Assembly (NCBI GenBank): GCA_026401075.1 | Contig: JAPLNQ010000243.1 | Coordinates: 1 to 50,067 of the forward strand | Origin: Planctomycetia bacterium | Lineage (GTDB): Bacteria; Planctomycetota; Planctomycetia; Pirellulales; UBA1268 | Direction of reading: 5' to 3' | Length of the DNA: 50,067 nt | Shown: one piece after another, positions 4,882 through 50,067 of the stretch | Position numbering within the stretch: the first letter of the stretch is position 1 | How the letters are laid out: each line of letters begins with the position of its first letter | Program-made: the position numbers and the translations under genes | The notes under the pieces: generated by a model | What the model saw: the letters and a program-made list of their open reading frames with translations, nothing else | What the model was told of the DNA's origin: nothing | Databases searched by the model: none

Positions 4882-6990
4882 CTACTTGGCCGCGATCGAC
4901 TGCTTTGCGGCGGCGGCGATCGCCTCGGCCGTGATGCCGAAGTGCTTGTAGAGCGCCGGGGCAGGGCCCGATGCGCCGAAGCTCGTCATGCCGACGAACC
5001 GGCCCCGCGGGCCGATCCAGCGATCCCACCCAAAGCCGCAGGCCGCCTCGCAGGCGACTCTTGCAGTCACTGCCTTGGGGAGCACGCTCTCCCGGTAGGC
5101 CTCGTCCTGCGCCTCGAAGTGATCCCAGCTCGGCATGCTCACGATGCGGGCCTGCACGCCCTCGGCGGCGAGCTTCTCGGCAGCCTCGATGCAGAGCTGT
5201 ACCTCGCTGCCGGTGCCGATCAGGATGCACTGCGGCTTGCCGTCGGCGGCGTCCTTCAGCACGTAAGCACCCTTGGCGACGCCTGCTGCCGAGCCATAGG
5301 CGGCGCGATCGAGCGTGGGGAGGTTCTGCCGGGAGAGCACGATCACCGCGGGGCGGTCGGCCTGCCGGATGACCTCACGGTAGGTCTCCGAAACCTCATT
5401 GGCGTCAGCCGGTCGGAACACGCTCAGGCCGGGCACGGCTCGGGCGCTGGCGAGCTGCTCGATCGGCTGGTGTGTCGGGCCATCCTCGCCCAGGCCAATC
5501 GAGTCGTGCGTGAGCACGTAGATCACACCCAGGTTGCCGATCGCGGAGAGACGCAGGGCCGGCTTGAGGTAGTCAAAGAAGACGAAGAAGGTGGCGCAGT
5601 AGGGTCGCAGGCCGGAGAGCGCCATGCCATTGCATGCCGAGGCCATGCCATGCTCGCGAATGCCGAAGTGAAAGTTGCGGCCGGAGAAGGAGCCGTGACC
5701 AAAGTCGCCGGCCCCCGGCACGAGCGTCATCGTCGAAGGTGCCAGGTCGGCCGAGCCGCCGAGGAACCACGGGATGACGCCGCTGAGCGCCTGGATCACC
5801 TTGCCGCTCGACACGCGGCTGGCGAGCCCCTTGGCATCGGCGGGGAAGCAGGGGATCGCCGATTCCCAGCCCGCGGGGGCCTGGCCGGCGAGGAAGACTG
5901 CCAGTTCCGTCGCCACCGCGGCGTGCGCCTTGGCCTGGTCGGCCACCGTCTTCCGCCATGTCTCGCGAGCCTTGTGGCCGCGGTCTCCCATCGTTCTGGC
6001 GAATCGCTCCGGCACCTCCGGCGGCACCAGGAACTGGGCGTCGACCGGCCAGCCATAGGCCGCCTTGGCCCCCTTGATCTCGTCCGCGCCCAGGGGCGCA
6101 CCGTGTGACTCGTGCGACCCCGCCTTCTTCGGCGCACCGTAGCCGATCACGCTCTTCACGATCACGAGCGTCGGCTTGTGCTGCTCGCTCTTGAAAGCCT
6201 GCAGGGCCTGCTTGAGGGCGGCCGTATCATTGGCGTCGGCGACGTGTTCGACCCGCCAGCCCATCCCCTCGAACTTCTTCGCGACGTTCTCACTGAAGGC
6301 GAGATGGGTCTCCCCCTCGATCGTGATCGAGTTGTCGTCGTAGATCCAGCAGAGATTCGCGAGGCCGAGGTGGCCGGCGATGGAGGCGGCTTCCGTGGCC
6401 ACGCCCTCCATCAGGTCGCCGTCGCTACAGAGCACGTAGGTGTCGTAGTCGAAGACGGCATGGCCGGGCGTGTTGTAGTGGGCGGCCAGCCAGCGTGACG
6501 CCATCGCCATGCCGACGGAGTTACCGCAGCCCTGTCCGAGCGGGCCGGTGGTTGTCTCGATGCCGGAGGTCATGTGGTGCTCGGGATGGCCCGCGCAGAC
6601 GCTGTCCAATTGACGGAACTTCTTGATCGATTCGAGCGACACGGCCGGCTCGCTGACAGAGCTGCTCCCGGCATCACCATGCGTTTTGGCATGGGCTGCT
6701 GCCCGGCGGATGCCGGCCAGATGAATGAGCGAATAGAGCAGCATCGACGCGTGGCCGCAGGAGAGCACGAACCGGTCGCGGTTGGGCCAGAGGGGATCGG
6801 CCGGGTCGTACCGCAGGAAATCGGTCCACACGGTGTAGGCCACGGGCGCCAGCGCCATGGGCGTGCCGGGATGGCCGCTCTTGGCGGCCTCGACCGCGTC
6901 CATCGAGAGGGTGCGGATCGTGTCGATTGCGAGGCGGTCGACGTCGGCGGCGTGGGACGTGCGCGCGGCGGGGGCGGAGGGGGCAGCCAT
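4882..6990 (-). CDS. tkt: transketolase
   Basis: A 702-residue transketolase, close to the usual 660-700. The thiamine diphosphate domain has SGHPGTPM (38-45), GPLGQG (149-154), GDLMEG (191-196) and DDNSITIEG (218-226). The pyrimidine domain has the catalytic glutamate in FGIREHGM (E446), preceded by GGSADLAPST and followed by 'THDSIGLGEDGPTHQP'. It moves two-carbon units between ketose donors and aldose acceptors in the cytoplasmic non-oxidative pentose phosphate pathway. Compared with typical enzymes there is a small extra loop around residues 95-117 (RRAAAHAKTHGDAGSSSVSE). All catalytic motifs are intact. It ends near a nest of repeats, and the next minus-strand gene upstream is 79 bases away. 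Confidence 0.97.
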   Translation of the reverse strand: MAAPSAPAARTSHAADVDRLAIDTIRTLSMDAVEAAKSGHPGTPMALAPVAYTVWTDFLRYDPADPLWPNRDRFVLSCGHASMLLYSLIHLAGIRRAAAHAKTHGDAGSSSVSEPAVSLESIKKFRQLDSVCAGHPEHHMTSGIETTTGPLGQGCGNSVGMAMASRWLAAHYNTPGHAVFDYDTYVLCSDGDLMEGVATEAASIAGHLGLANLCWIYDDNSITIEGETHLAFSENVAKKFEGMGWRVEHVADANDTAALKQALQAFKSEQHKPTLVIVKSVIGYGAPKKAGSHESHGAPLGADEIKGAKAAYGWPVDAQFLVPPEVPERFARTMGDRGHKARETWRKTVADQAKAHAAVATELAVFLAGQAPAGWESAIPCFPADAKGLASRVSSGKVIQALSGVIPWFLGGSADLAPSTMTLVPGAGDFGHGSFSGRNFHFGIREHGMASACNGMALSGLRPYCATFFVFFDYLKPALRLSAIGNLGVIYVLTHDSIGLGEDGPTHQPIEQLASARAVPGLSVFRPADANEVSETYREVIRQADRPAVIVLSRQNLPTLDRAAYGSAAGVAKGAYVLKDAADGKPQCILIGTGSEVQLCIEAAEKLAAEGVQARIVSMPSWDHFEAQDEAYRESVLPKAVTARVACEAACGFGWDRWIGPRGRFVGMTSFGASGPAPALYKHFGITAEAIAAAAKQSIAAK

Positions 6991-23400: not shown

Positions 23401-23684
23401 GCATCGCCGTCGAGATCGTGAAAAAGCTGCAGGAGGGGCATCCGAACCTGATCGATTCACTCATCGACGGTCGCGTGCAGTTGATCTTCAACACACCGCG
23501 GGGCAAGGGGGCGAGGACCGACGAGGGTCGCATCCGGGCCGCGAGTGTGCAGTATGGCGTGCCCTGCATCACGACGCTGCCGGCAGCAGAGGCCTGCGTG
23601 CTGGCGATGGAGGCCCTCCGCACCGAGCAGCTGGAAGTGCAGGCGATCCAGGACCGGTTTCCGGCGAGCGTTACGGCTCGGTAG
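20418..23684 (+). CDS. carB: carbamoyl-phosphate synthase large subunit
   Basis: A complete 1088-residue CarB, near the standard 1073. It makes carbamoyl phosphate from bicarbonate, ATP and ammonia delivered by the small subunit, for pyrimidine and arginine synthesis. The N-terminal ATP-grasp half begins [20 protein letters not shown] and contains [13 protein letters not shown]. The oligomerisation region follows. The second ATP-grasp half begins [20 protein letters not shown], with '[13 protein letters not shown]'. The last 130 residues are the MGS-like allosteric domain ([18 protein letters not shown]...). The second half resembles the first, reflecting the known internal duplication. ATG 20418 is preferred over 20376 because it begins the conserved [17 protein letters not shown]. 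carA is not in the window. Confidence 0.97.
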
Positions 23685-23769
23685 CGACAGCGGAATTCGA
23701 CAGGCGGTGCTGCTTCGCGTAAGGTTGCTGGTGAGTCAACGCCAACGTGGGCCATGGAGATCCTCCTCG

Positions 23770-23994
23770 ATGACGAAGCATCATTTCACCGTCGTTCTCG
23801 AACGTGATCCTGAGGGCGGATTTCATGCGTCCTGCCCCGCCCTCAAAGGCTGCCACTCCGAGGGCGACACAGTCGACGAGGCTGTGGCGAACGTCCGCGA
23901 GGCGATCGAGGTGTATTTGGAAAGCATGGCCGCCAAGGGGGAAACGATTCCGGTGGAGGATCTGCTGATCAAGCCGGTCGAGGTCGCGATATGA
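23770..23994 (+). CDS. hicB: HicB family antitoxin
   Basis: A 74-residue HicB-type protein with a partial RNase H fold: FTVVLERDPEGGFHASCPAL, then 'GCHSEGDTVDEAVANVREAI' and 'EVYLES'. It lacks an added DNA-binding C-terminal domain. It should neutralise the adjacent HicA toxin by direct binding. The ATG at 23770 has GGAG nine or so bases upstream. The stop overlaps the hicA start by four bases (ATGA), giving coupled synthesis. The antitoxin comes first, the reverse of the commonest hicAB order. Confidence 0.9.
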   Translation: MTKHHFTVVLERDPEGGFHASCPALKGCHSEGDTVDEAVANVREAIEVYLESMAAKGETIPVEDLLIKPVEVAI

Positions 23995-24224
23995 CGCGGC
24001 TGCCGGCGGTGACTGCCCGGGAACTGGTTGTCGTGGCCGAAAAGCTCGGATTCGTTTTGGATCGGCAAAAGGGCAGCCATGCCGTGTTCATCCGGGCAGC
24101 GGGAGACGAACGGCAGCGGATTGTGGTGCCGATCCACAAGGGACGCACCTTGAAGCGGGGAACGCTGCACGGTCTCATTGCGGACATGGGCATCACGGTC
24201 GAAGAATTCGTGGAGATGCTGTGA
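23991..24224 (+). CDS. hicA: HicA family mRNA interferase toxin
   Basis: A 77-residue HicA with the dsRNA-binding-like fold: 'TARELVVVAEKLGFVLDRQK', the active-site histidine in GSHAVF (His30), 'RIVVPIHKGRTLKRGTLHGL' and a C-terminal helix. The toxin cleaves mRNA, halting translation when HicB is lost. The catalytic motif is intact, so the pair looks functional. It sits between carB and rlmKL; a 22-base gap separates it from rlmKL. Confidence 0.9.
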   Translation: MTRLPAVTARELVVVAEKLGFVLDRQKGSHAVFIRAAGDERQRIVVPIHKGRTLKRGTLHGLIADMGITVEEFVEML

Positions 24225-40689: not shown

Positions 40690-42162
40690 TTACTGCTTGG
40701 CTAGAAACGCCACGGTCTTTTTCTGGATCGCCTCGAGGGTTTCGTCCACGCCCTGCTTTCCGGTCGTCATTCGCCCGAGTTCGGCGGCGTTGACCTCCGA
40801 GGCGAGTGTCACCCAGGCAGGCAGGTGGGGTGACGTGCCCATGCGGTTTTCAATCGCCCGCCGCGTCACGTCGAAGTGGCGGGTCGTTCCGCGCACCGGC
40901 CGCTTCTTGGCCAGCACGCGAGGATCGGTGTAGTTGCTGCGGCGAATGGGCGTGTCGGCTCCGTCGGCATTGGCCCGGGCGGTCACGTCGGCGCTTGTCG
41001 CCCACTGCATGAAGACCCAGGCCGCGTCGGCGTTCGGGGCGTGTTTGCTCAGCGCGAGGCACGATCCTCCCTGACGGCTGATCCCCGGCGTCTCGTGGAA
41101 GCCGCACTGGTCGGGGGTCAGTCTCGCATCCTCGAGCGGGCAATCGGCCGCCTCCACCAGGCCGACGACCCGGCTGCTGTCGGGATCGTCGCATGCAGGG
41201 AAGAACTCGCTCCAGGAGATGACGATCCCGGCCCGGCCCTGGGTGAGCGCAGCGGCCTGTCCGTTCCAGTCCCATTCGCGGACATCCGGGCTCATGTGCT
41301 TGCCCAGCTGCAGCATGTAGCGGAGCCCCTTCGCGTTGCCCTCTGTGACGTAGTCGGGGCGATTCTCGGCGCTAAAGTGGTGGCCACCGTGCGCCCACGT
41401 CCACGCCGAGGCATCGCACTGCAGGGAGAAGTGTCCGGTCTTCCACTGGCCGACAGTGCCGTGGATGCCCTGGCCGCGTTTGGCCTCGTCGATCGCCCGG
41501 ACCGTGTCGAGATACTCGCCCATCGTCTTCGGCACCGCGAGCCTGAGTTCATCGAGGATGTCCTTACGGTACATCATGATGAAGATCGGGATGTCGAATG
41601 GCACTCCGATGATCCGGCCATCGTGACTGGCGGTTGCCTCCACCAGTTGCGCGAGCAGTTCCTCGACCCCGATGCTCTCGTTCGCGAAGCGGGCCAGCCA
41701 GGCCTGGTCCCAGTAGAAGATGTCGTGGTGCCCCTTGGTGCCGTCGGCACCGGTGATCGTGTCCTGCACGGTTTTGGCAAGCACTTGGTCGAGCGGCACC
41801 ATCGGCCAGTCGACCTCGATGCCGGTCAGCGGCGTAAACTCCTCGCGGATCATCCTGCCGATCGAAAGCCCCGGCGGCGTGTTCTCCGAGACCACCTTGA
41901 TTCGGGTTCCCTTGAACCGTTTTCCTGCATCGACGAGGAACTGTCGCTGCTCTTTCGTTACGCCGCTTTCGGTGATCGACGGCTCTGCGGCATGGAGCCT
42001 GGCTCCGGCCGGGGAGTGGCCCGCGAGATACCGCGCCGAGGCGAAGCCGAAGCCCGCGCTGGCGGCGGCGCGAAGAAACCCCCGGCGGCCGATGCCGCCC
42101 AGCCGCAGCTTCTCGGCCATGGCCGCCACGAAGAGTCGCTGCTGGCGATCAAGATCGTTCAT
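40690..42162 (-). CDS. Tat-exported extracellular solute-binding protein (family 1)
   Basis: A 490-residue ABC-importer binding protein of the sugar-type family 1. The N terminus carries a twin-arginine signal (GRRGFLRAAASAG at 25-37), so it is exported folded. The mature part has 'TRIKVVSENTPPGLSIGRMI', 'TGIEVDWPMVPLDQVLAKTV', 'DIFYWDQAWLARFAN' and 'AWVFMQWATSADVTARANAD', typical of carbohydrate-binding members. No cognate sugar permease is adjacent; the next genes are a divergent MacB/DevC-type pair of a different ABC class. AGGA lies nine bases before ATG 42162. Confidence 0.85.
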   Translation of the reverse strand: MNDLDRQQRLFVAAMAEKLRLGGIGRRGFLRAAASAGFGFASARYLAGHSPAGARLHAAEPSITESGVTKEQRQFLVDAGKRFKGTRIKVVSENTPPGLSIGRMIREEFTPLTGIEVDWPMVPLDQVLAKTVQDTITGADGTKGHHDIFYWDQAWLARFANESIGVEELLAQLVEATASHDGRIIGVPFDIPIFIMMYRKDILDELRLAVPKTMGEYLDTVRAIDEAKRGQGIHGTVGQWKTGHFSLQCDASAWTWAHGGHHFSAENRPDYVTEGNAKGLRYMLQLGKHMSPDVREWDWNGQAAALTQGRAGIVISWSEFFPACDDPDSSRVVGLVEAADCPLEDARLTPDQCGFHETPGISRQGGSCLALSKHAPNADAAWVFMQWATSADVTARANADGADTPIRRSNYTDPRVLAKKRPVRGTTRHFDVTRRAIENRMGTSPHLPAWVTLASEVNAAELGRMTTGKQGVDETLEAIQKKTVAFLAKQ

Positions 42163-42286
42163 CGGTTCGCTTCCTCGTGAGGCTTCGATAGGTGTGCTCT
42201 CGACGGCCGAAGCATGGGCTCTGGCCCAGGACGCGTCAACTGATAAGAAAAGAGTTGCATCCCCTTTTTCCGGCTACAATTCCAGC
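42163..42286. promoter_or_regulatory. divergent promoter region with possible leaderless start for the permease
   Basis: TACAAT (42275-42280) ends six bases before the permease ATG at 42287, and no Shine-Dalgarno lies between. The arrangement is the same as that before the PaaK-like gene at 13518-13530. Confidence 0.3.
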
Positions 42287-43376
42287 ATGCTCTGGGTTGC
42301 CTGGAAAATGCTGATCGGAAACCGGGTGAAATACCTCGGCATCGTGTTCGGTGTGATGTTCGCCGCGCTGCTCATCGCGCAGCAGTCGTCGATCTTCTGC
42401 GGCCTGATGTCGCTCACGGTCAGTCAGATCCGCGACGTTGAGGGGCCTGGCATCTGGGTGATGGACAAGAACGTCCAGTTCGTCGACGACATCAAGCCGT
42501 TGGCCGACACCTGCCTGTTTCGCGTCAAAGGAGTGTCGGGCGTCGAGTGGGCGGTGCGGTTTTACAAGGGTCTCGCGCGGGCGCGGATGGAGGAGGGTGA
42601 TTATCACCAGATGATCCTCTTGGGCATGGATGACGCCACGCTCGTCGGTGCACCGGAAGGAGTGTTCATGGGATCGATCGCCGACCTCCGCAAGCCCGAT
42701 GCCGTGATCATGGATGACGCCGGCTACCAGCTGATCTGGCCGGGCGAGCCCTACCGGCTCGGCCGTGTATTCGAGATGAACGACCGCCGCGCGGTGCTCG
42801 TGGGAATCACCAAGGCGCTCCGCACGTTCCAGAGCTTTCCGATCATCTACACGCGATACAGCCAGGCCGTGCTCTTTGCGCCGCCGGAGCGGAAGGTGCT
42901 TTCGTTCGTGCTCGCGCAGCCGCGGCCCGGCATGGATCCGCAGGAAGTCTGCCGGCAGATCGAGGAGCAGACCGGCCTGCAGGCGCTCACCCGCAACCAG
43001 TTCATGTGGAAGACGATCCGTCATTTTCTGATGAAGACCGGCATCCCGGTCAACTTTGCGATCACCGTATTCCTCGGGTTTCTCGTCGGTACGGCGATCG
43101 CAGGGCAGACCTTTTATCTCTTCACGGTGGAGAACATCCGCCAGTTCGGGGCGCTCAAGGCGATGGGCACGAGCAACTGGACGATCCTGCTGATGGTGCT
43201 ATCCCAGGCAGTGCAGGTGGGCGTGGTGGGCTATGGCATCGGCGTCGGGCTGGCCGCGCTCCTGGCAGGTGCTGGCCATCACGGCCGTGGCGGTGTTTTT
43301 CATCGTGCTGCTGGCGAGCCTCTTGTCGATCCGCAAGGTGCTCGTGGTCGACCCGGCGATCGTGTTCCGCGGATGA
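42287..43376 (+). pseudogene. FtsX/DevC-type ABC permease, disrupted near the C terminus
   Basis: It starts MLWVAWKMLIGNRVKYLGIV and carries a first membrane helix, a roughly 220-residue MacB-type extracytoplasmic domain and the helices 'FAITVFLGFLVGTAIAGQTF' and 'NIRQFGALKAMGTSNWTILL'. The frame is lost at about 43260: GVGLAAL leads into unrelated residues, while the next frame continues WQVLAITAVAVFFIVLLASL and ends SIRKVLVVDPAIVFRG at a TGA (43374-43376), the normal FtsX ending. About 15 residues expected between the two parts are missing. Such permeases work with the ATPase encoded next, in lipid or small-molecule export. Confidence 0.8.
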
Positions 43377-43396
43377 ATGCAGGAGCATCGGAATCC

Positions 43397-44048
43397 ATGT
43401 CCATGACAGACCCGAGCCCCACGCAGCCCAGCGATGGCATGCCCGCTATCGATGCAGCCGTGCGGGTCCGCGGCGTGACGAAGGAATTCGGGACGGGTGG
43501 TTCGCTGACGCGGGCCCTGCGGGGCGTCGATTTGGATGTGCCCTATGGCGAACTGCTGATCCTCGCGGGCCCCAGCGGCTGCGGAAAGACGACGCTCGTC
43601 TCGATCGTGGCGGGCACACTCGAGCCGTCGGACGGCGAGGTGGTGGTGCTCGGCAAAGACCTTGTGGTGATGAGCAACGGCCGCAAGGTGAAATTCCGCC
43701 GCGAGAATGTCGGCTTCGTCTTCCAGTCCTACAACCTGCTGCCCTCGCTCACGGCTGCGGAGAACGCCGCCGTGCCGTTGTTGATCGCCGGCTGGCATCG
43801 CGCGCGGGCGGTGGAGGCGGCCAGCGACGTGCTCGACAAGCTCGGCCTCGGCGACCGGCTCGGAGAACGGCCGGATCACGATGGAGCTGATCTCGAACAT
43901 CGCCGTGCAGCCCGACCGGGCCGTGATCGTGGTCACGCACGATTCGCGGGTTTATTCGTTCGCCGACCGGATCGCGAACATGGAAGACGGCCGCATCGAG
44001 AGCGTGGAAGCAGGACCGCTGCGGACCGGATCGACGGGCGGGCGGTGA
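43397..44048 (+). pseudogene. MacB/DevA-type ABC ATPase, disrupted: signature motif and Walker B deleted
   Basis: The N-terminal part (ATG 43397, AGGAG 11 bases upstream) has Walker A GPSGCGKTT and the Q-loop region 'NVGFVFQSYNLLPSLTAAEN', ending GLGDRLGERP at about 43873. The next frame resumes RITMELISNIAVQPDRAVIV and 'THDSRVYSFADRIANMEDGR', the switch histidine and C-terminal end, to a TGA at 44046-44048. The roughly 40 residues between them, which must hold LSGGQ, Walker B and the D-loop, are absent and the frame shifts. ATP hydrolysis would be impossible. It is 20 bases after the permease, which carries its own lesion. Confidence 0.82.
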
Positions 44049-44074
44049 TGGCAGGGCAGCAATTTGAGCTCAGC

Positions 44075-45262
44075 TCAAGCTCTGGGCGAATCGATGCCTG
44101 GGGCGTTCAGGCACTCGCCCAGGATCCGGCGTACGGTGTCGATGGAGTGGTGCTGCACGACCCACGCGTGGGCATTGTCGGAGAGCCGTCGGCAGAGGTC
44201 ATGGTCGGTTGAGAGCCGCAGGCAGGCGGCCGCAAACTCCTCCGCCGTGTCTGCAATGAGGAGATGCTCGCCGTTGGTCACGGTCAAGCCTTCTGCACCC
44301 TTGGTCGTGGAGACGACGGGAGTGCGATGTTGGAACGCCTCCAGAATCTTGATGCGGGTGCCGCTGCCGGCCCGCAGTGGCACCACGAGCATGCCGGCGG
44401 AGGCATATTCTGTCGCGAGGTTCGCAACGGCGCCGATCAGTTGCACGCCCGGGAGACTTCTGACCGCGACGATCGACTCCGACTGGCCGACGCCCACGAT
44501 GCGGAAGGTCATCCGATCGTCCTGCTCCCGGATGAGCGGCAGGATGGAGCGGGCAAAGAAGGCCACGGCGTCGGCATTGGGCAGGTAATCAAGTGAGCCG
44601 ACGAAGAGGATCGACCGTGGCTCGCGGACGCCGGCGGTCGCCGATGAGTGCGGTGCCCGGACGGCATTGGGCACGTGGACGAACGAATGGCCCGGATGGC
44701 GTGACCGCAGCGTCTTGCAGTCGTCCTCACTGGCGAGCAGAAGATGGTTGAACCGTGGCATCAGCATGGTGCGAAAAAGGTTCATCTTCGGAATCTCGGC
44801 CCGGATCTTGGCCGCGACGGCCGCTTCGCCGGCGGCTTCGTGCAGTGGCACGAACTGCTCGTTGCGGGCGCACTCGTCATCGTCGAGATCGAGGATGGTG
44901 ACGCGGGGGCGGGGTCCCACCGCGTTGACGCAGTTGATCGCCAGCGGTGCAACGACCTGCCGGAATGCATAGACCACATCCAGCTGCGCGCCGCCCGGCT
45001 CGCCAGTCAGGAAGTCCTCCACCAGCGGTCGGATGTCTTGCAAGCGATGGGGCTGAATTCGAAAAAACGCGGCGGAGTGGGCTCGCACCCAGTCGTCGTG
45101 GAAGATGCCTTCGCGGCTGGCCCAGAGTTCCGGGTGCACCACGATCACGGAGTAGAGCGACGCCAGTACCTCCAGGGCGATGCTGGCTCGCATCGCGGAG
45201 CCACCGCCGGTGGGATACGGCAGAAACGGCGTGACGAACAGGCAGTAAGGCTTGGGTGTCAT
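44075..45262 (-). CDS. glycosyltransferase family 4 protein
   Basis: A 395-residue GT-B enzyme. It opens 'YCLFVTPFLPYPTGGGSAMR', has 'RVTILDLDDDECARNEQFVP' in the middle, then RSILFVGSLDYLPNADAVAF, 'PGVQLIGAVANLATEYASAG' and 'VVPLRAGSGTRIKILEAFQH'. This is the usual arrangement of GT4 proteins that act on polysaccharides. It is the last gene of the PqqD-kinase cluster; its start overlaps the nucleotidyltransferase-family gene by four bases. Confidence 0.88.
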   Translation of the reverse strand: MTPKPYCLFVTPFLPYPTGGGSAMRASIALEVLASLYSVIVVHPELWASREGIFHDDWVRAHSAAFFRIQPHRLQDIRPLVEDFLTGEPGGAQLDVVYAFRQVVAPLAINCVNAVGPRPRVTILDLDDDECARNEQFVPLHEAAGEAAVAAKIRAEIPKMNLFRTMLMPRFNHLLLASEDDCKTLRSRHPGHSFVHVPNAVRAPHSSATAGVREPRSILFVGSLDYLPNADAVAFFARSILPLIREQDDRMTFRIVGVGQSESIVAVRSLPGVQLIGAVANLATEYASAGMLVVPLRAGSGTRIKILEAFQHRTPVVSTTKGAEGLTVTNGEHLLIADTAEEFAAACLRLSTDHDLCRRLSDNAHAWVVQHHSIDTVRRILGECLNAPGIDSPRA

Positions 45263-46200
45263 GGGTGCGCGGCTGTCGGGGGAGCGGAGGGGAGCGATGT
45301 TCGATGAAGTGTGGGGGATCGGAGTCTTCCGGCCTTGGTCACTAGGCTCCGCGCCGCTCCATGGACGAGCGACTCAACACGGCCCGTCCACCGGCAGTGC
45401 GGCCGCATGGCCGGCACCCGCATGCCGGCCTGTCGCAGTTCCGCCAAACGGTCGAACGCCGCAGGGGCGTAGCAGGCGGCGAGTTCCCGGAAAGACTCCC
45501 ACTGGTGGGCCGTAAGCGGGAGGAGTACTGCATCGACCTGCCAGGGTATCAATGAATCGCCGGCATTCGTCGTGCCGAGAAGCGAGAGCATGAGGTGCTC
45601 CGCCGGCATGACGGGCTCGGCATTGGCGAACAGATCGGCCTCGCAGCGACGGGCCCGCCAGGGCGCTACAGACAGGTGTCGCCAGAGAAGTTTCAGTGGG
45701 ATCCCGTTGCGTAGGAAATTCGTGTGGCTCACCCAGTCGAGAGCCTTCAATTCTGGAGCGGTACCTTCGAGGAGCCAGCCGGATGCCTGGAGGATTTGAT
45801 GGGCGGCCGCCTGCTGGTGCCTGGGCACGGCAAGATGGATCGCCGTCAGCGGCCTCACGGAGCCAGGGCGTTGGTTTCGCAGGAAGACTGCTGATGGACC
45901 GGCCACCATCACTGGCCCCACGCCGCCGGCTTCGAACATGGCTGTGCATTCCTGCAGCACCTGCCGACGCATCTGCGCCTCGGTCCAGCCGCGGCGGACG
46001 ATACCCATGAGAATCCCGGCATCGGGATCACCTACGAGCCACGGCTGAAGCTGCTGCTGGCCGAGAACCGGCAGGAGATGGAGCGCCGACCACGAGAGCT
46101 TCTGCACGTCGACCTCGCGACGCCATTGTCGCCAGGCCGCGGCCGCCGTGCCGGCGGAGCGGGCCAGGATCGCCTGCACCAGGAACGCGGTGTCGTTCAT
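45259..46200 (-). CDS. nucleotidyltransferase-family protein (NTP_transf_5-like)
   Basis: A 313-residue protein. Features such as 'VMVAGPSAVFLRNQRPGSVR', 'LTAIHLAVPRHQQAAAHQIL', 'WVSHTNFLRNGIPLKLLWRH' and 'EPVMPAEHLMLSLLGT' match the family annotated as putative nucleotidyltransferase that accompanies PqqD and HPr-kinase-like genes in peptide- and glycan-modification loci. The GS and DxD residues of active nucleotidyltransferases are weak or replaced here (the expected acidic pair is not clear), so activity is doubtful. ATG 46200 overlaps the GT2 stop, and its own stop overlaps the GT4 start, both as ATGA. Confidence 0.6.
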   Translation of the reverse strand: MNDTAFLVQAILARSAGTAAAAWRQWRREVDVQKLSWSALHLLPVLGQQQLQPWLVGDPDAGILMGIVRRGWTEAQMRRQVLQECTAMFEAGGVGPVMVAGPSAVFLRNQRPGSVRPLTAIHLAVPRHQQAAAHQILQASGWLLEGTAPELKALDWVSHTNFLRNGIPLKLLWRHLSVAPWRARRCEADLFANAEPVMPAEHLMLSLLGTTNAGDSLIPWQVDAVLLPLTAHQWESFRELAACYAPAAFDRLAELRQAGMRVPAMRPHCRWTGRVESLVHGAARSLVTKAGRLRSPTLHRTSLPSAPPTAAHP

Positions 46201-46889
46201 CGACCGGCGGCTCCGGCGGCATGTGCGCGGCGGCGTTCCATCAGCCAATGCATCGCCTGCGTGTATTCGGCGCGTGCCTGGCGGTTGCGGGTGGTGTTGT
46301 CGCCGTGCACGCGGCGGCGGACGAACGAGCCGGGCACGACGAGCGACTTGAGCCCGAGCGTCTGTGCCCAGCCATACCAGGCGATGAACTCGCCGCAGCG
46401 AAATTCCGGGAGCGGCCCCGCGACGTCAAACACGTCGCGGCGGGCGAGCAGACCAGATGGTCCCATGAAAGGACGCGACTCTGGATTGCATGGGAAAGCG
46501 GCTGGTGGATCGGAGAACTCCTCGCCGTAGCAGAATGCGAGCGACACATCGGGCTGGGCACTCAGTGCGGCGCACTGGTCCGCGAGCTTTCCCGGTAGCC
46601 AGAGGTCATCGGCATCGAGAAATGCGATGAGCGGCGCTGTGGCGGCCGCGATGCCGGTATTGCGGGCGCACGCCGCGCCGGGCTTGGGCTCGTGCATGAG
46701 CCGCACCTTCGAGCCGAAGTCTCGCTGCACGCAGTCGCAGGTGGCGTCGGTGGAGTCGTTGTCCACCACGATCACGTCCAGATCGAAGTCCGCGGCGGCT
46801 TCACGCTGCAGAAAGACGCTCTCGAGGGCCTGCCCGATGAACCGGGCGGCGTTGTGGGCCGGCATGACGACGCTGACGGAGGTGTTCAC
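46197..46889 (-). CDS. glycosyltransferase family 2 protein
   Basis: A 230-residue GT-A enzyme. It starts SVSVVMPAHNAARFIGQALE, has 'DVIVVDNDSTDATCDCVQRD', 'GAACARNTGIAAATAPLIAF' and the metal-binding LDADDLWLPGKL. It is on the short side, lacking any C-terminal membrane or lectin domain. It probably adds one sugar to a cytoplasmic acceptor. It lies 10 bases after the PqqD-kinase gene and overlaps the following gene by four bases. Confidence 0.9.
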   Translation of the reverse strand: MNTSVSVVMPAHNAARFIGQALESVFLQREAAADFDLDVIVVDNDSTDATCDCVQRDFGSKVRLMHEPKPGAACARNTGIAAATAPLIAFLDADDLWLPGKLADQCAALSAQPDVSLAFCYGEEFSDPPAAFPCNPESRPFMGPSGLLARRDVFDVAGPLPEFRCGEFIAWYGWAQTLGLKSLVVPGSFVRRRVHGDNTTRNRQARAEYTQAMHWLMERRRAHAAGAAGR

Positions 46890-46899
46890 GGGGCAGCCT

Positions 46900-48660
46900 T
46901 CACCCGTTTAAAAGCGTGGTGAGCGCCGCCGGAATCCCGCGGATGTCGGTACCGAGGTGCAACAGGTAGGCCGGCAGCTTCTCGGCCAGCGCCACCATGC
47001 GGTCGCAGTCTTCGTTCGACGCCGCAGGAAGCTGCGCGACGGTGCTCGGCAGCATCGCCACGAGCGCATCGAACGGAGGGCAGGGCTCGACGTAAGAGGC
47101 TAGCTGGCCTGTGATCCGCGGCACGATGATGGCCCGTAGGGGCATGCCCGCCACGACGCGATGGGGCCAGATCTCGTCGAGGAAGTAGACCGCCTTGTCG
47201 GCACCGCCCCGTTCGAAGCTGTCGGGATTGGTGGAGAGGCCTTTCAGCTCCGGCAGTCGGGCGTAGTCTTCCGGTCCCTTGAGCTTGCCGGTGTTGTAGA
47301 GGCTATGGGCCCATGCGCGAGCGGGGTCGATCAGGCAGTAGTCGTCGCCGGCATACTGCATGCCGGCGGCGGCGCAGAGCAGGGCGGTGGTCGACTTGCC
47401 GGAGCCGCCCTTGCCCACCAGGAGCACGCCGCCCTTTTCCGTGCCGACCGCGGCGCCGTGCACATACTGCAGTCCCCTCGCCGCAAACCATTCGTGCAGC
47501 AGGAACCGGAAGGGGGATCCGACTTCCCAGTAGGGGAAGGTGACGTCATCGAGCTTCAGCAGCCAGCCCCGGTTCTGGTCGAAGTCGACCACTGTGAGCA
47601 CGTTGGGCCCAGCGTTGTAGATCGCGGAGATCCCAACGGAATGCAGCTCAAGGACCTCGCCCCGAGGACCGCACTCCGCGCACCAATTGGCCCGCAACCG
47701 CCGCAGCAGGTCGGCCAGCACGGGCGGAGCAGATGGCGTGGCACCGTTCCAAGCACTGATGGTGAGGCCGGCCGCCGAGGCCGTTGCCTCGGGGAGCGCC
47801 AGATGCCCCAGGGCGGGCCGGAGCCGCCGCGCATCCTGCTCCGGGATCGTCCGCACGCAGACGTCGTGGCCACCGATCCGATACCACTGCTGGACGGGGC
47901 CACCAGCCGAGGCTGCGTCGTCCAGAAACGACTGCTCCAGTCGATCCAGGAGCTGCCGACCCTGGGCGGTGGCGGCACGACGCATCGGGCGATCGGCTTC
48001 GATCCACGGTCGCATGAGTGCTTCGAGGTCGTGATGCACGGTGGTGCCGCGGTCCGCATCGAGCGTGGAATAGACTCCGGTATCGCGGTTGACAAGCAGC
48101 GTGTGGCCACCGAGTTTGGCGGTGAGAACGTCGCCGCCCGTGGCGGCTCGGTCGATGTCGGTGATCGCCTGCTTGGCTGCCGGCGCAGCGGGCGGGGGCT
48201 CTGCCGGCCCTCCAGCCGCGGCATTGGGCCATCCCGCCGCGGCATCGACTTCGTGCACCGGGTCGAGCAGGAACAGCTCCTGCAGATCGTTGTTCGACCG
48301 TAGCTCGGGGGGCGAGTAGGCCGCTGCGGGCGTTGCTATGCGTGCCACGTCCACCGCCACCCCGCCCGACGGACAGGTGACGATCAGATCGCGGGCGGTG
48401 AGTTCGGCGATGAAGGATTGCAGGTCGCGGGCAGCCACGTCGTGAGGGAGTGCGTAGACGGCGGTCAACAGCTGAGCAACATCGGCGACCGCCGCGCCGC
48501 CGGAGCCAAACGCCAGCCACGCGGTGCCGCCGGATTCGGAGAGGCTGTAGTAACTCCCGTTGCGCAGATCGACGACCACCACCTCGCGGTCGAAGAGTTG
48601 ATGAATGACGTCGGGCTCATTGACCCGGTAGGACTGCTTGGAAAATATTGTGGCTGCCAA
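46900..48660 (-). CDS. PqqD-domain / HPr-kinase-like fusion protein
   Basis: A 586-residue fusion. Residues 1-98 are a PqqD-type peptide-binding domain (REVVVVDLRNGSYYSLSESG, then 'TARDLIVTCP'). A linker (about 100-175) contains 'NDLQELFLLDPVHEVDAAAG'. A second stretch resembling part of PqqD (GGHTLLVNRDTGVYSTLDAD) follows at 184-203. From about 330 it is HPr-kinase-like: the P-loop VGKGGSGKST (415-424), 'MQYAGDDYCLIDPARAW' and 'GLSTNPDSFERGGADKAVYF'. PqqD domains present leader peptides to modifying enzymes; HPr-kinase-like domains phosphorylate serine in some peptide pathways. The start is TTG 48660 with GGAG eight bases upstream. No precursor peptide is obvious next to it. Confidence 0.8.
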   Translation of the reverse strand: MAATIFSKQSYRVNEPDVIHQLFDREVVVVDLRNGSYYSLSESGGTAWLAFGSGGAAVADVAQLLTAVYALPHDVAARDLQSFIAELTARDLIVTCPSGGVAVDVARIATPAAAYSPPELRSNNDLQELFLLDPVHEVDAAAGWPNAAAGGPAEPPPAAPAAKQAITDIDRAATGGDVLTAKLGGHTLLVNRDTGVYSTLDADRGTTVHHDLEALMRPWIEADRPMRRAATAQGRQLLDRLEQSFLDDAASAGGPVQQWYRIGGHDVCVRTIPEQDARRLRPALGHLALPEATASAAGLTISAWNGATPSAPPVLADLLRRLRANWCAECGPRGEVLELHSVGISAIYNAGPNVLTVVDFDQNRGWLLKLDDVTFPYWEVGSPFRFLLHEWFAARGLQYVHGAAVGTEKGGVLLVGKGGSGKSTTALLCAAAGMQYAGDDYCLIDPARAWAHSLYNTGKLKGPEDYARLPELKGLSTNPDSFERGGADKAVYFLDEIWPHRVVAGMPLRAIIVPRITGQLASYVEPCPPFDALVAMLPSTVAQLPAASNEDCDRMVALAEKLPAYLLHLGTDIRGIPAALTTLLNG

Positions 48661-48854: not shown

Positions 48855-49631
48855 TCAACCGGGGGCCTTGCCGGAGTAGTCGATCCAAGGGACGGCAGGC
48901 GTGGGCAGCGGCGCGCTCCGGGCCTGCCCGCGGTTGATGCGTCGCTTATAGATCTTGAGCAGCCCAAAGTGGACAAGATTCCGTTGCTCCAGCGTCATGT
49001 TGCGGTCGTGCTTGCGGTAAAACATCACCACCTCCGGCAGGACTGCCTTGGGAACGTTGTGCTCCCAGGCACGAATGAACCAGTCGATATCTTCAGCGAG
49101 GTGAAACCCGGGATCGAACAGGCCGACCGTGTCAAACACCGTCTTGCGGTAGACCGCACTGCCGATATTGATGAACTGATAGGGCTGGAACACCGGCGTG
49201 AAGGTCCTCGGCTGGGTCTCGGGGACGGAGCGGTCGAGATGCATCTGCTGGATCATTCCCTGGGCGATGCCGACCTCGGGATGAGCCTGGAGATGATCCA
49301 CGAGTTGATGCAGCACACGGTCGGCCCAGAGGTCGTCGACGTCGAGAAATGCAAGGAATTCTCCCCGGGCGATCTCGATGCCCCGATTGCGGGCGGCTGC
49401 CGGTCCCTGGTTCGGCTGTCTGACGGAGCGGATGTCGTCCGAGAAGGCTGCAGCGATGTCGGCGGTGCCATCGGTCGAGCCATCATCGACGACGATGAAT
49501 TCGAGCGGTTGGTAGTGCTGCGCCAAGACGTGGCGAATGGCCTCCGCCAGAAAGGCCTCGCCGTTGTAGACGGGCATGACTACGGTCAGCAGCGGACGAG
49601 GGTCGTCAGCGGGAGGAGCGGGCGTGGTCAT
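48855..49631 (-). CDS. glycosyltransferase family 2 protein
   Basis: A 258-residue GT-A enzyme. It has LLTVVMPVYNGEAFLAEAIR, 'LEFIVVDDGSTDGTADIAAA', 'GPAAARNRGIEIARGEFLAF' and the DXD region LDVDDLWADRVL, then 'FHLAEDIDWFIRAWEHNVPK' (the ED acceptor motif). It is probably one of the sugar transferases of this cluster. ATG 49631 is preferred because family similarity begins there; it overlaps the stop of the small upstream gene by four bases. Confidence 0.9.
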   Translation of the reverse strand: MTTPAPPADDPRPLLTVVMPVYNGEAFLAEAIRHVLAQHYQPLEFIVVDDGSTDGTADIAAAFSDDIRSVRQPNQGPAAARNRGIEIARGEFLAFLDVDDLWADRVLHQLVDHLQAHPEVGIAQGMIQQMHLDRSVPETQPRTFTPVFQPYQFINIGSAVYRKTVFDTVGLFDPGFHLAEDIDWFIRAWEHNVPKAVLPEVVMFYRKHDRNMTLEQRNLVHFGLLKIYKRRINRGQARSAPLPTPAVPWIDYSGKAPG

Positions 49632-49987
49632 GGGCGATTTTTGCTGTGAGGCGTGGCGATGCCGGCGGGACTGGACCACTGGTTCAGGCAACCGCGTCGG
49701 AGCAGATGCTCCACGCCGACGGGGAAGAACTGGTTATGGTTGGCATCGCTGATGTAGTGGATCATCGCGGTTTTTTTCATGATGGGGGTGTTGGTGAACT
49801 GATGGGTCTCGTCCATGGGATGGAACGGTCTCCAGAGCGACCAAGGCCGCAGTGGGCAATGCCCCGGGTCGCGGCCCATGAGAAGTGCGTAGATCGTCTG
49901 TTCCATCACCCACCAGCAGAGCGTGGCACGCACATCTTCGGAGTTGATGTCGACGTAGGCATCGACGTAGCCGACGGAACGTGTCAA
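49628..49987 (-). CDS. small unknown protein coupled to the GT2 gene
   Basis: A 119-residue frame that I do not recognise. It starts at TTG 49987 (or slightly upstream; a stop lies in frame near 50010). It is rich in Trp, His and Pro (ATLCWWVMEQTIYALLMGRD, PLRPWSLWRPFHPMDETHQF) and ends ATPHSKNRP. Its stop overlaps the GT2 start as ATGA, the same coupling used across this cluster, which supports it being translated. No signal peptide is seen. It could be the C-terminal remnant of a longer cluster gene. Confidence 0.4.
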   Translation of the reverse strand: MTRSVGYVDAYVDINSEDVRATLCWWVMEQTIYALLMGRDPGHCPLRPWSLWRPFHPMDETHQFTNTPIMKKTAMIHYISDANHNQFFPVGVEHLLRRGCLNQWSSPAGIATPHSKNRP

Positions 49988-50067
49988 TGACTTTGAGACA
50001 ACTGCGGAACGAATTTAGTGTCGCGGGGTAGTTCAAGTGTGCGGACTGTTGGCCGGTTTTCGGGTGG

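Follow-up and report, generated by a model that had tools for sequence, protein, structure and literature searches.

The DNA analysed here (the window) comprises 50,067 nucleotides from a Planctomycetia bacterium and represents a complete contig (JAPLNQ010000243.1) within a 4.16 Mb assembly (GCA_026401075.1). On its minus strand, with the contig end at position 50067 lying 1.4 kb upstream, it carries a gene for a 586-residue protein in which a PqqD domain, the recognition element (RRE) of ribosomally synthesized and post-translationally modified peptides (RiPPs), is joined to an HprK-like kinase. Between these two domains lie a stretch resembling the leader and core of a RiPP precursor and a second, truncated PqqD-like domain. 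The fusion protein is laid out as follows:

46900 to 48660, minus strand: 586-residue fusion of PqqD/RRE domain, leader-like and core-like tail, second truncated PqqD-like domain and HprK-like kinase
48382 to 48585, minus strand: PqqD (RRE) domain, PF05402 match
48274 to 48318, minus strand: leader-like segment YSPPELRSNNDLQEL with a YxxPxL motif, placed by motif register
48226 to 48270, minus strand: core-like motif LLDPVHEVDAAAGWP, conserved among homologues
48052 to 48138, minus strand: second, truncated PqqD-like stretch GGDVLTAKLGGHTLLVNRDTGVYSTLDAD, assigned with a profile of fused relatives
47332 to 47466, minus strand: HprK-like catalytic region with HG, the P-loop GKGGSGKST and GDD, from an alignment of relatives

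Domain architecture of the fusion protein

The first-pass annotation of this DNA had proposed that PqqD and HPr-kinase-like domains share one reading frame, which is borne out by profile match, fold match and conserved kinase residues. The N-terminal PqqD domain (residues 26-93) scores 45-48.8 bits against PF05402, compared to a cut-off of 23.4 bits. The kinase domain scores 18.1 bits against PF07475, below the cut-off of 33.3 bits; by fold, its best PDB matches are PEPCK (E 4e-9) and HprK/P (E 8e-6), as obtained with an AlphaFold2 model. For the fusion as a whole the AlphaFold2 model reaches a mean predicted local distance difference test score (pLDDT) of 85.9. An HprK-type His, the Gly-Lys of the P-loop and an Asp are invariant across 10 aligned rows, and we take the His, the P-loop Lys and the Asp to be catalytic. 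An assignment as HPr kinase/phosphatase, i.e. as a sugar regulator, was considered and dropped: the PDB folds do not separate this enzyme from other HprK-like kinases, but the locus context gives no support for it.

The second PqqD-like stretch, which had been pointed out as unusual, is likewise real. A profile of five fused relatives, which excludes the shorter copy of the window itself, matches the PqqD profile with an hhalign probability of 96.6 and an E-value of 5.5e-10, and the stretch in the window aligns with those of the relatives. Among homologues two forms occur, in which PqqD and kinase are either fused or encoded by separate genes. In the kinase tree, seven fused loci form one clade (support 98/100) spanning planctomycete-phylum and cyanobacterial genomes, the latter including L024 (titled Cyanobium) and L026 (titled Synechococcus). 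Two contigs of one bin labelled Gemmatimonadetes (L021 and L025) each contain the start of this fusion gene. In L021 it follows a GT2 gene, which is also the order of the window, and in L025 it follows an active NTP_transf_5 gene and a different long gene; the pair may stem from two gene copies, from two strains or from mixed binning.

The conserved tail and its leader-like register

The 'LLDPVHEVD' type linker was initially described as repeated. It occurs only once in the window, and recurs instead across homologues as a conserved tail. In unfused relatives the respective stretch is the C-terminal tail of a stand-alone PqqD protein of about 150 residues, with the consensus [Y/F]xxPxLxxYxDMQELLLLDPIHEVDxxGWP. 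Its hosts are planctomycete-phylum genomes, cyanobacteria and small AT-rich genomes of the cyanobacterial phylum, which may be Vampirovibrionia ('Melainabacteria'). By means of a motif pattern 53 tails were gathered, and the constancy of D, P, H, G and W among them is therefore partly a selection effect. In 44 of these the frame ends 16 to 37 residues past the motif Asp, and in nine, partial frames included, more than 40 residues follow within the frame. A first alignment of 17 rows, again chosen by the pattern, shows D-P-x-H and G-W-P to be invariant in 17/17 rows at a mean column identity of 29%; besides one Leu, all fully invariant columns belong to the tail. The tail of L133, which the pattern missed, reads DPIHETD.

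Less affected by such selection, matches to a profile of PqqD plus tail (A5) extend through the tail (position ≥138) in at least 28 of 386 sampled genomes of the cyanobacterial phylum and at least 8 of 392 of the window's phylum, these counts being lower bounds because 4 or 10 candidates were scored per genome. When 17 whole genomes were searched with a 39-residue tail query, all 23 places found at E < 0.01 lay inside already-known PqqD frames, and no other protein of these genomes showed the tail. Among plasmid records, the kinase occurs on a Crinalium plasmid only, and PqqD matches three records, two of them over half the length only. Crinalium epipsammum PCC 9333 (NC_019735.1) encodes a stand-alone PqqD-tail protein at 5896-6360, along with genes for an HPr kinase and a nucleotidyltransferase. 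In two loci, L032 and L120, the leader-like part is unchanged and the core is changed (LDPPSPVLIDGAW and LDPPMPDAGEIPW), the corresponding PqqD tails being LDPPSPVLIDGAWSSSDGE and LDPPMPDAGEIPWELSDDD; the kinases of these loci cluster together with moderate support (94/76) in the kinase tree. A further variation concerns the AT-rich loci (L122, L126, L128 and others of L121-L128), where an HprK gene of about 505 residues carries a C-terminal PqqD domain of its own. This extra domain has a degenerate leader-like end and no core, and appears to derive from a duplicated PqqD-tail protein.

Solved RREs of lasso peptides and of the RiPP family of linear polyphosphorylated peptides (LPP) grip their leaders via [Y/W]xxPx[L/V/I/F/A] (PMC13381572). 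A corresponding motif, [YFW]xxPx[LIVMFA], is present in 27 of the 33 tails outside the AT-rich group, compared to 7.5% of shuffled tails, and the spacing from its Pro to the Asp of the core-like motif is exactly 15 in all 27 motif-bearing tails. In LPP precursors, with the consensus YxxPxVLxHQxIxFETxxS, the residue S3 is phosphorylated by LppK, and the spacing from Pro to this Ser, as counted from the printed consensus, is also 15 (PMC13381572).

An AlphaFold2 model of a stand-alone homologue, based on 50 aligned rows, gives pLDDT values of 93 and 86 for the leader segment (residues 111-130), 66 for the linker and 61 for the core. Hence the leader motif of the tail is predicted to dock in cis onto its own RRE. 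A short strand is predicted at Pro+3 to Pro+5 of the tail, and the model of the fusion places it likewise; these positions correspond to the residues of the PbaA leader, Pro+3 to Pro+5, by which the RRE sheet is extended in the solved PbaB1 complex. The core-like part is of low confidence in both models. Structurally, the homologue best matches TbiB1 (Z 14.7) and TfuB1, both solved with leader peptides, the lasso RRE TbiB1 being the closest fold, which agrees with the winged helix-turn-helix fold of a PqqD domain; the VIA-align list contains RREs along with some unrelated winged helix-turn-helix proteins, and absence of a family from it carries no meaning. A 36-residue tail query returned no match in the PDB up to E 10, and no leader chain was matched by sequence.

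Neighbouring genes and the search for a separate precursor

The fusion gene is surrounded by the following genes:

48855 to 49691, minus strand: GT2 glycosyltransferase upstream of the fusion (PF00535, 122.1 bits)
49628 to 49987, minus strand: C-terminal part of a longer gene that runs off the contig, no Pfam match
46197 to 46889, minus strand: GT2 glycosyltransferase with GTG start, 10 bases past the stop of the fusion (PF00535, 84.9 bits)
45259 to 46200, minus strand: degenerate NTP_transf_5 relative of 314 residues, D-x-D lost, ATG at 46200 (PF14907, below cut-off)
44075 to 45262, minus strand: GT4 glycosyltransferase (PF13692, 87.2 bits)

The linkage of the cluster by ATGA overlaps or short gaps, as described at first, is confirmed: ATGA overlaps link GT2 to the NTP_transf_5 relative (46200-46197) and the latter to GT4 (45262-45259), and fusion and GT2 are separated by the 10-base gap. 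By eye, the C-terminus YISDANHNQFFPVG of the truncated gene is similar to that of a 344-residue gene adjoining HprK in L110. Next to the GT4 gene, both here and in genome G001, lies a MacB/FtsX-type ABC transporter; in the window (41720-44212, plus strand) it is seemingly frame-shifted, with an 830-residue frame showing FtsX and partial ABC_tran matches, and in G001 the counterpart is a clean 411-residue permease. Further away, at 23545-24221 (plus strand), two adjoining small open reading frames (ORFs) presumably encode a HicB-like/HicA-like toxin-antitoxin pair, judging by their look; similar ORFs are found in L114.

The proposed nucleotidyltransferase-family gene is indeed a relative of NTP_transf_5, yet an active enzyme is not supported: it scores 13.3 bits compared to a cut-off of 31.2 bits and is devoid of the D-x-D kept by active relatives. 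The same loss is seen in the counterparts of G001, G024 and G143 and in a 354-residue Crinalium gene, with active copies beside or near them. In G001, whose fusion is 84% identical, the active NTP_transf_5 gene lies directly upstream, and that of the window may therefore sit beyond the contig end.

Within 10 kb, the 34 loci available with flanks contain HprK (34), NTP_transf_5 (32) and GT2-like genes (30), and an Asn-synthetase motif in none. In the relatives we called the genes ourselves from ORFs, and counts of GT2, ABC and Asn-synthetase are based on motifs. Since 14 of the 34 loci entered via kinase-containing queries or the plasmid hit, the 20 loci fetched by the PqqD-tail profile alone were counted separately, with 20, 18 and 16 occurrences of HprK, NTP_transf_5 and GT2-like genes, respectively. 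Sulfotransferase, carbamoyltransferase and SDR genes are also found in the relatives. As to the MsbA-like exporter that belongs to LPP, an ABC signature (motif only) occurs within 10 kb in 6 of the 34 loci, and PF00664 in L126, which is not one of these six. The AT-rich locus L122 has a radical SAM gene (PF04055; 16386-17372, plus strand) within its run of PqqD-tail, kinase, NTP_transf_5 and glycosyltransferase genes; no radical SAM domain was found among the scanned window proteins. Overall, the relatives do not look like an ordinary polysaccharide locus that has no conserved small gene, the outcome which would have spoken against a peptide system: they keep the small stand-alone PqqD protein with its tail.

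The initial statement that cyclase, protease and separate precursor are missing holds within the window, the contig end at 50067 leaving the region further upstream unread. In the 34 loci, 907 small intergenic ORFs yielded six two-locus groups, none of which was fittingly related to the tail, and no family shared by these loci qualified as a separate precursor.

Interpretation and relation to known systems

The suggestion of a phospho-glyco-peptide type of system without lasso machinery fits the recurrence of the same gene set, the lack of the cyclase motif in 34/34 loci and the precedent of LPP (PMC13381572). Domain order, tail, fixed register and gene partners can be read from the sequences themselves; that the tail with its core-like motif is the modified substrate, we infer. 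With a probability of roughly 0.4, we favor a module related to the tailoring sets of LPP and paeninodin type, with the RRE serving as its own precursor and carrying leader and core-like peptide in cis. Here, the PqqD domain would be followed by a flexible linker and a lasso/LPP-type leader motif that is predicted to dock back onto the same domain. The docked leader may then hold out the LLDPIHEVDxxGWP peptide to the neighbouring HprK-like kinase, NTP_transf_5 and small GT2 enzymes, and these could add phosphate or sugar to it, conceivably at the Asp found in place of the LPP Ser. In this genome and a clade of relatives, the same chain also bears the truncated second RRE and the kinase. Candidate acceptors are the invariant Asp, which occupies the register of the LppK-phosphorylated Ser, as well as His and Trp.

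Several observations count against an RRE that serves as its own precursor. Because the motif lies inside the chain of the fusions, two cleavages would be required to release a product, and the search for a leader peptidase came up empty: the SpI profile TIGR02228 exceeded its cut-off in 0 of the 17 genomes and had no match in the window's own genome, where a PF13471 protease was not found either. The core-like motif has no conserved Ser, Thr or Tyr; 16 of the 24 stand-alone tails outside the AT-rich group lack these residues between DP and GW, and 4 of the 24 are without any. HprK-type kinases are known for Ser, and most RiPP cores vary, whereas the core-like motif here is nearly invariant. 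Moreover, the leader-motif Pro is absent in 20/20 AT-rich tails, and the evidence for cis docking consists of model confidence and DSSP assignment. Finally, NTP_transf_5 is represented in the window by a degenerate relative, and in the genome as a whole no match to this family passes the cut-off (best 30.5 bits).

The main rival, a serious contender though not one we would bet on, is a tethered-leader scaffold, in which the tail keeps the RRE groove permanently occupied and is itself never modified or cut. The kinase, NTP_transf_5 or GT2 would then dock at DPIHEV..GWP and, once recruited or switched on, act on something other than the tail, be it a polysaccharide, a lipid-linked sugar or a different protein. 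Near-invariance of the motif is in keeping with a binding site, and such a role would fit its conservation at an internal position in fused forms, the missing hydroxyl acceptor and peptidase, and loci rich in GT2/GT4, sulfotransferase, carbamoyltransferase and SDR genes. What speaks against a scaffold is that the motif takes the place which the core has in LPP and lasso precursors and that its Asp falls into the register of the phospho-Ser, and further that a fixed docking site does not predict L032 and L120 with their changed core behind an unchanged leader-like part. Because a scaffold explains the absent hydroxyl and the non-terminal motif, but not these two loci, we rank it below the RRE that is its own precursor.

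The remaining explanations fare worse. Rather unlikely, in our view, is an assembly or regulatory factor of an ordinary capsule or exopolysaccharide locus that re-uses the PqqD fold for no peptide chemistry. The glycosyltransferase-rich surroundings in window and relatives and the lack of a separate precursor agree with this, but paeninodin-type lasso and LPP systems use just this combination of kinase and NTP_transf_5 for tailoring (PMC8498205, PMC13381572), the closest fold is a lasso RRE, and the RRE-binding motif stands in a fixed register. We give still less credence to a true LPP-like system whose separate precursor is encoded at another site in the genome or on the unread side of the contig end, the RRE tail acting as competitor or regulator. 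The sequence upstream of the fusion stops after 1.4 kb, and LPP precursors, with their very variable C-termini, are easy to overlook; however, there is neither a conserved small ORF family in the 34 loci nor, in the 17 genomes, a second tail-bearing protein or an SpI peptidase over the cut-off. That the contig end has cut off part of a lasso peptide cluster is highly improbable: lasso B1 models show a resemblance to the PqqD profile, scoring 31.6 bits at a cut-off of 80, but the cyclase motif is absent in 34/34 loci, the own genome has no PF13471 protease, and its Asn-synthetase hits lie on other contigs.

A bolder claim, which we consider doubtful, is that an RRE which is its own precursor defines a class of peptide systems common to planctomycete-phylum bacteria and cyanobacteria. 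Recognition domain and precursor would be one polypeptide, whose leader docks in cis and presents a near-invariant LDPIHEVDxxGWP, in which Asp, His or Trp rather than Ser would be the target of kinase, nucleotidyltransferase and glycosyltransferase. The outcome might be either a covalent carrier of glycans or a peptide with a defined phospho- or glyco-modification. RiPP genome mining seeks an RRE and then a separate small precursor gene, and would let a system with the precursor inside the RRE escape. According to a 2025 RRE survey, 21% of PF05402 proteins exceed a discrete RRE and have no further annotation (PMC12710340), and the conserved tail may account for some of these. The LPP paper leaves open the final products and the role of RRE/HprK/NTP-transferase loci near capsule genes (PMC13381572). 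Here, the candidate substrate is a single near-invariant peptide that can be expressed and weighed, which makes the question directly testable, e.g. with the annotated Crinalium plasmid cluster. Our searches of the open PMC library brought up no paper that describes the tail motif or a natural fusion of RRE and precursor, that deals with HPr-rel-A or that mentions PF14907 by name.

Two known groupings share the pair of PqqD protein and HprK-related kinase and were rejected by their curated cut-offs. For HPr-rel-A, relatives score up to 42.8 bits with TIGR04352 (kinase, cut-off 200) and 22.7 bits with TIGR04353 (PqqD, cut-off 35). The SynChlorMet cassette has the same pair as ScmC (HprK-like) and ScmD (PqqD), and a radical SAM gene is also present in the AT-rich L122; the ScmC and ScmD profiles stay below their cut-offs, and the scanned window proteins differ in having no radical SAM domain. 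Closer is the tailoring of paeninodin/pseudomycoidin type, where an HprK homologue and a nucleotidyltransferase stand alongside a PqqD-type B1 protein (PMC8498205); in contrast, the present system has no cyclase, B2 protease or lasso precursor and no conserved C-terminal Ser in its tail.

The closest relative is LPP itself, described for lppAKBSDN of Paenibacillus alginolyticus as a RiPP family with RRE, HprK and NTP transferase and without cyclase (PMC13381572, Nat Commun May 2026). Both share a lasso-type RRE, an HprK-like kinase, an NTP transferase (here over the cut-off in most relatives), the lack of a cyclase and a capsule-type neighbourhood, and the YxxPxV leader of LPP with Ser at Pro+15 corresponds to the tail with Asp at Pro+15. 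The LPP precursor is a separate gene, whereas leader-like and core-like parts here belong to the RRE itself; LPP has an SpI-like peptidase, of which none was found here in the 17 genomes; its acceptor is Ser, the register of which is taken by Asp; and its hosts are mostly Bacillota instead of members of the planctomycete and cyanobacterial phyla. In addition, several GT2/GT4 genes are present here, and in the window RRE and kinase are fused and NTP_transf_5 is degenerate. As two testable defining features of LPP, the separate precursor and the SpI peptidase, fail, the system is not LPP proper. It is best read as related to, and probably working like, LPP and paeninodin-type tailoring, i.e. as a variant of these.

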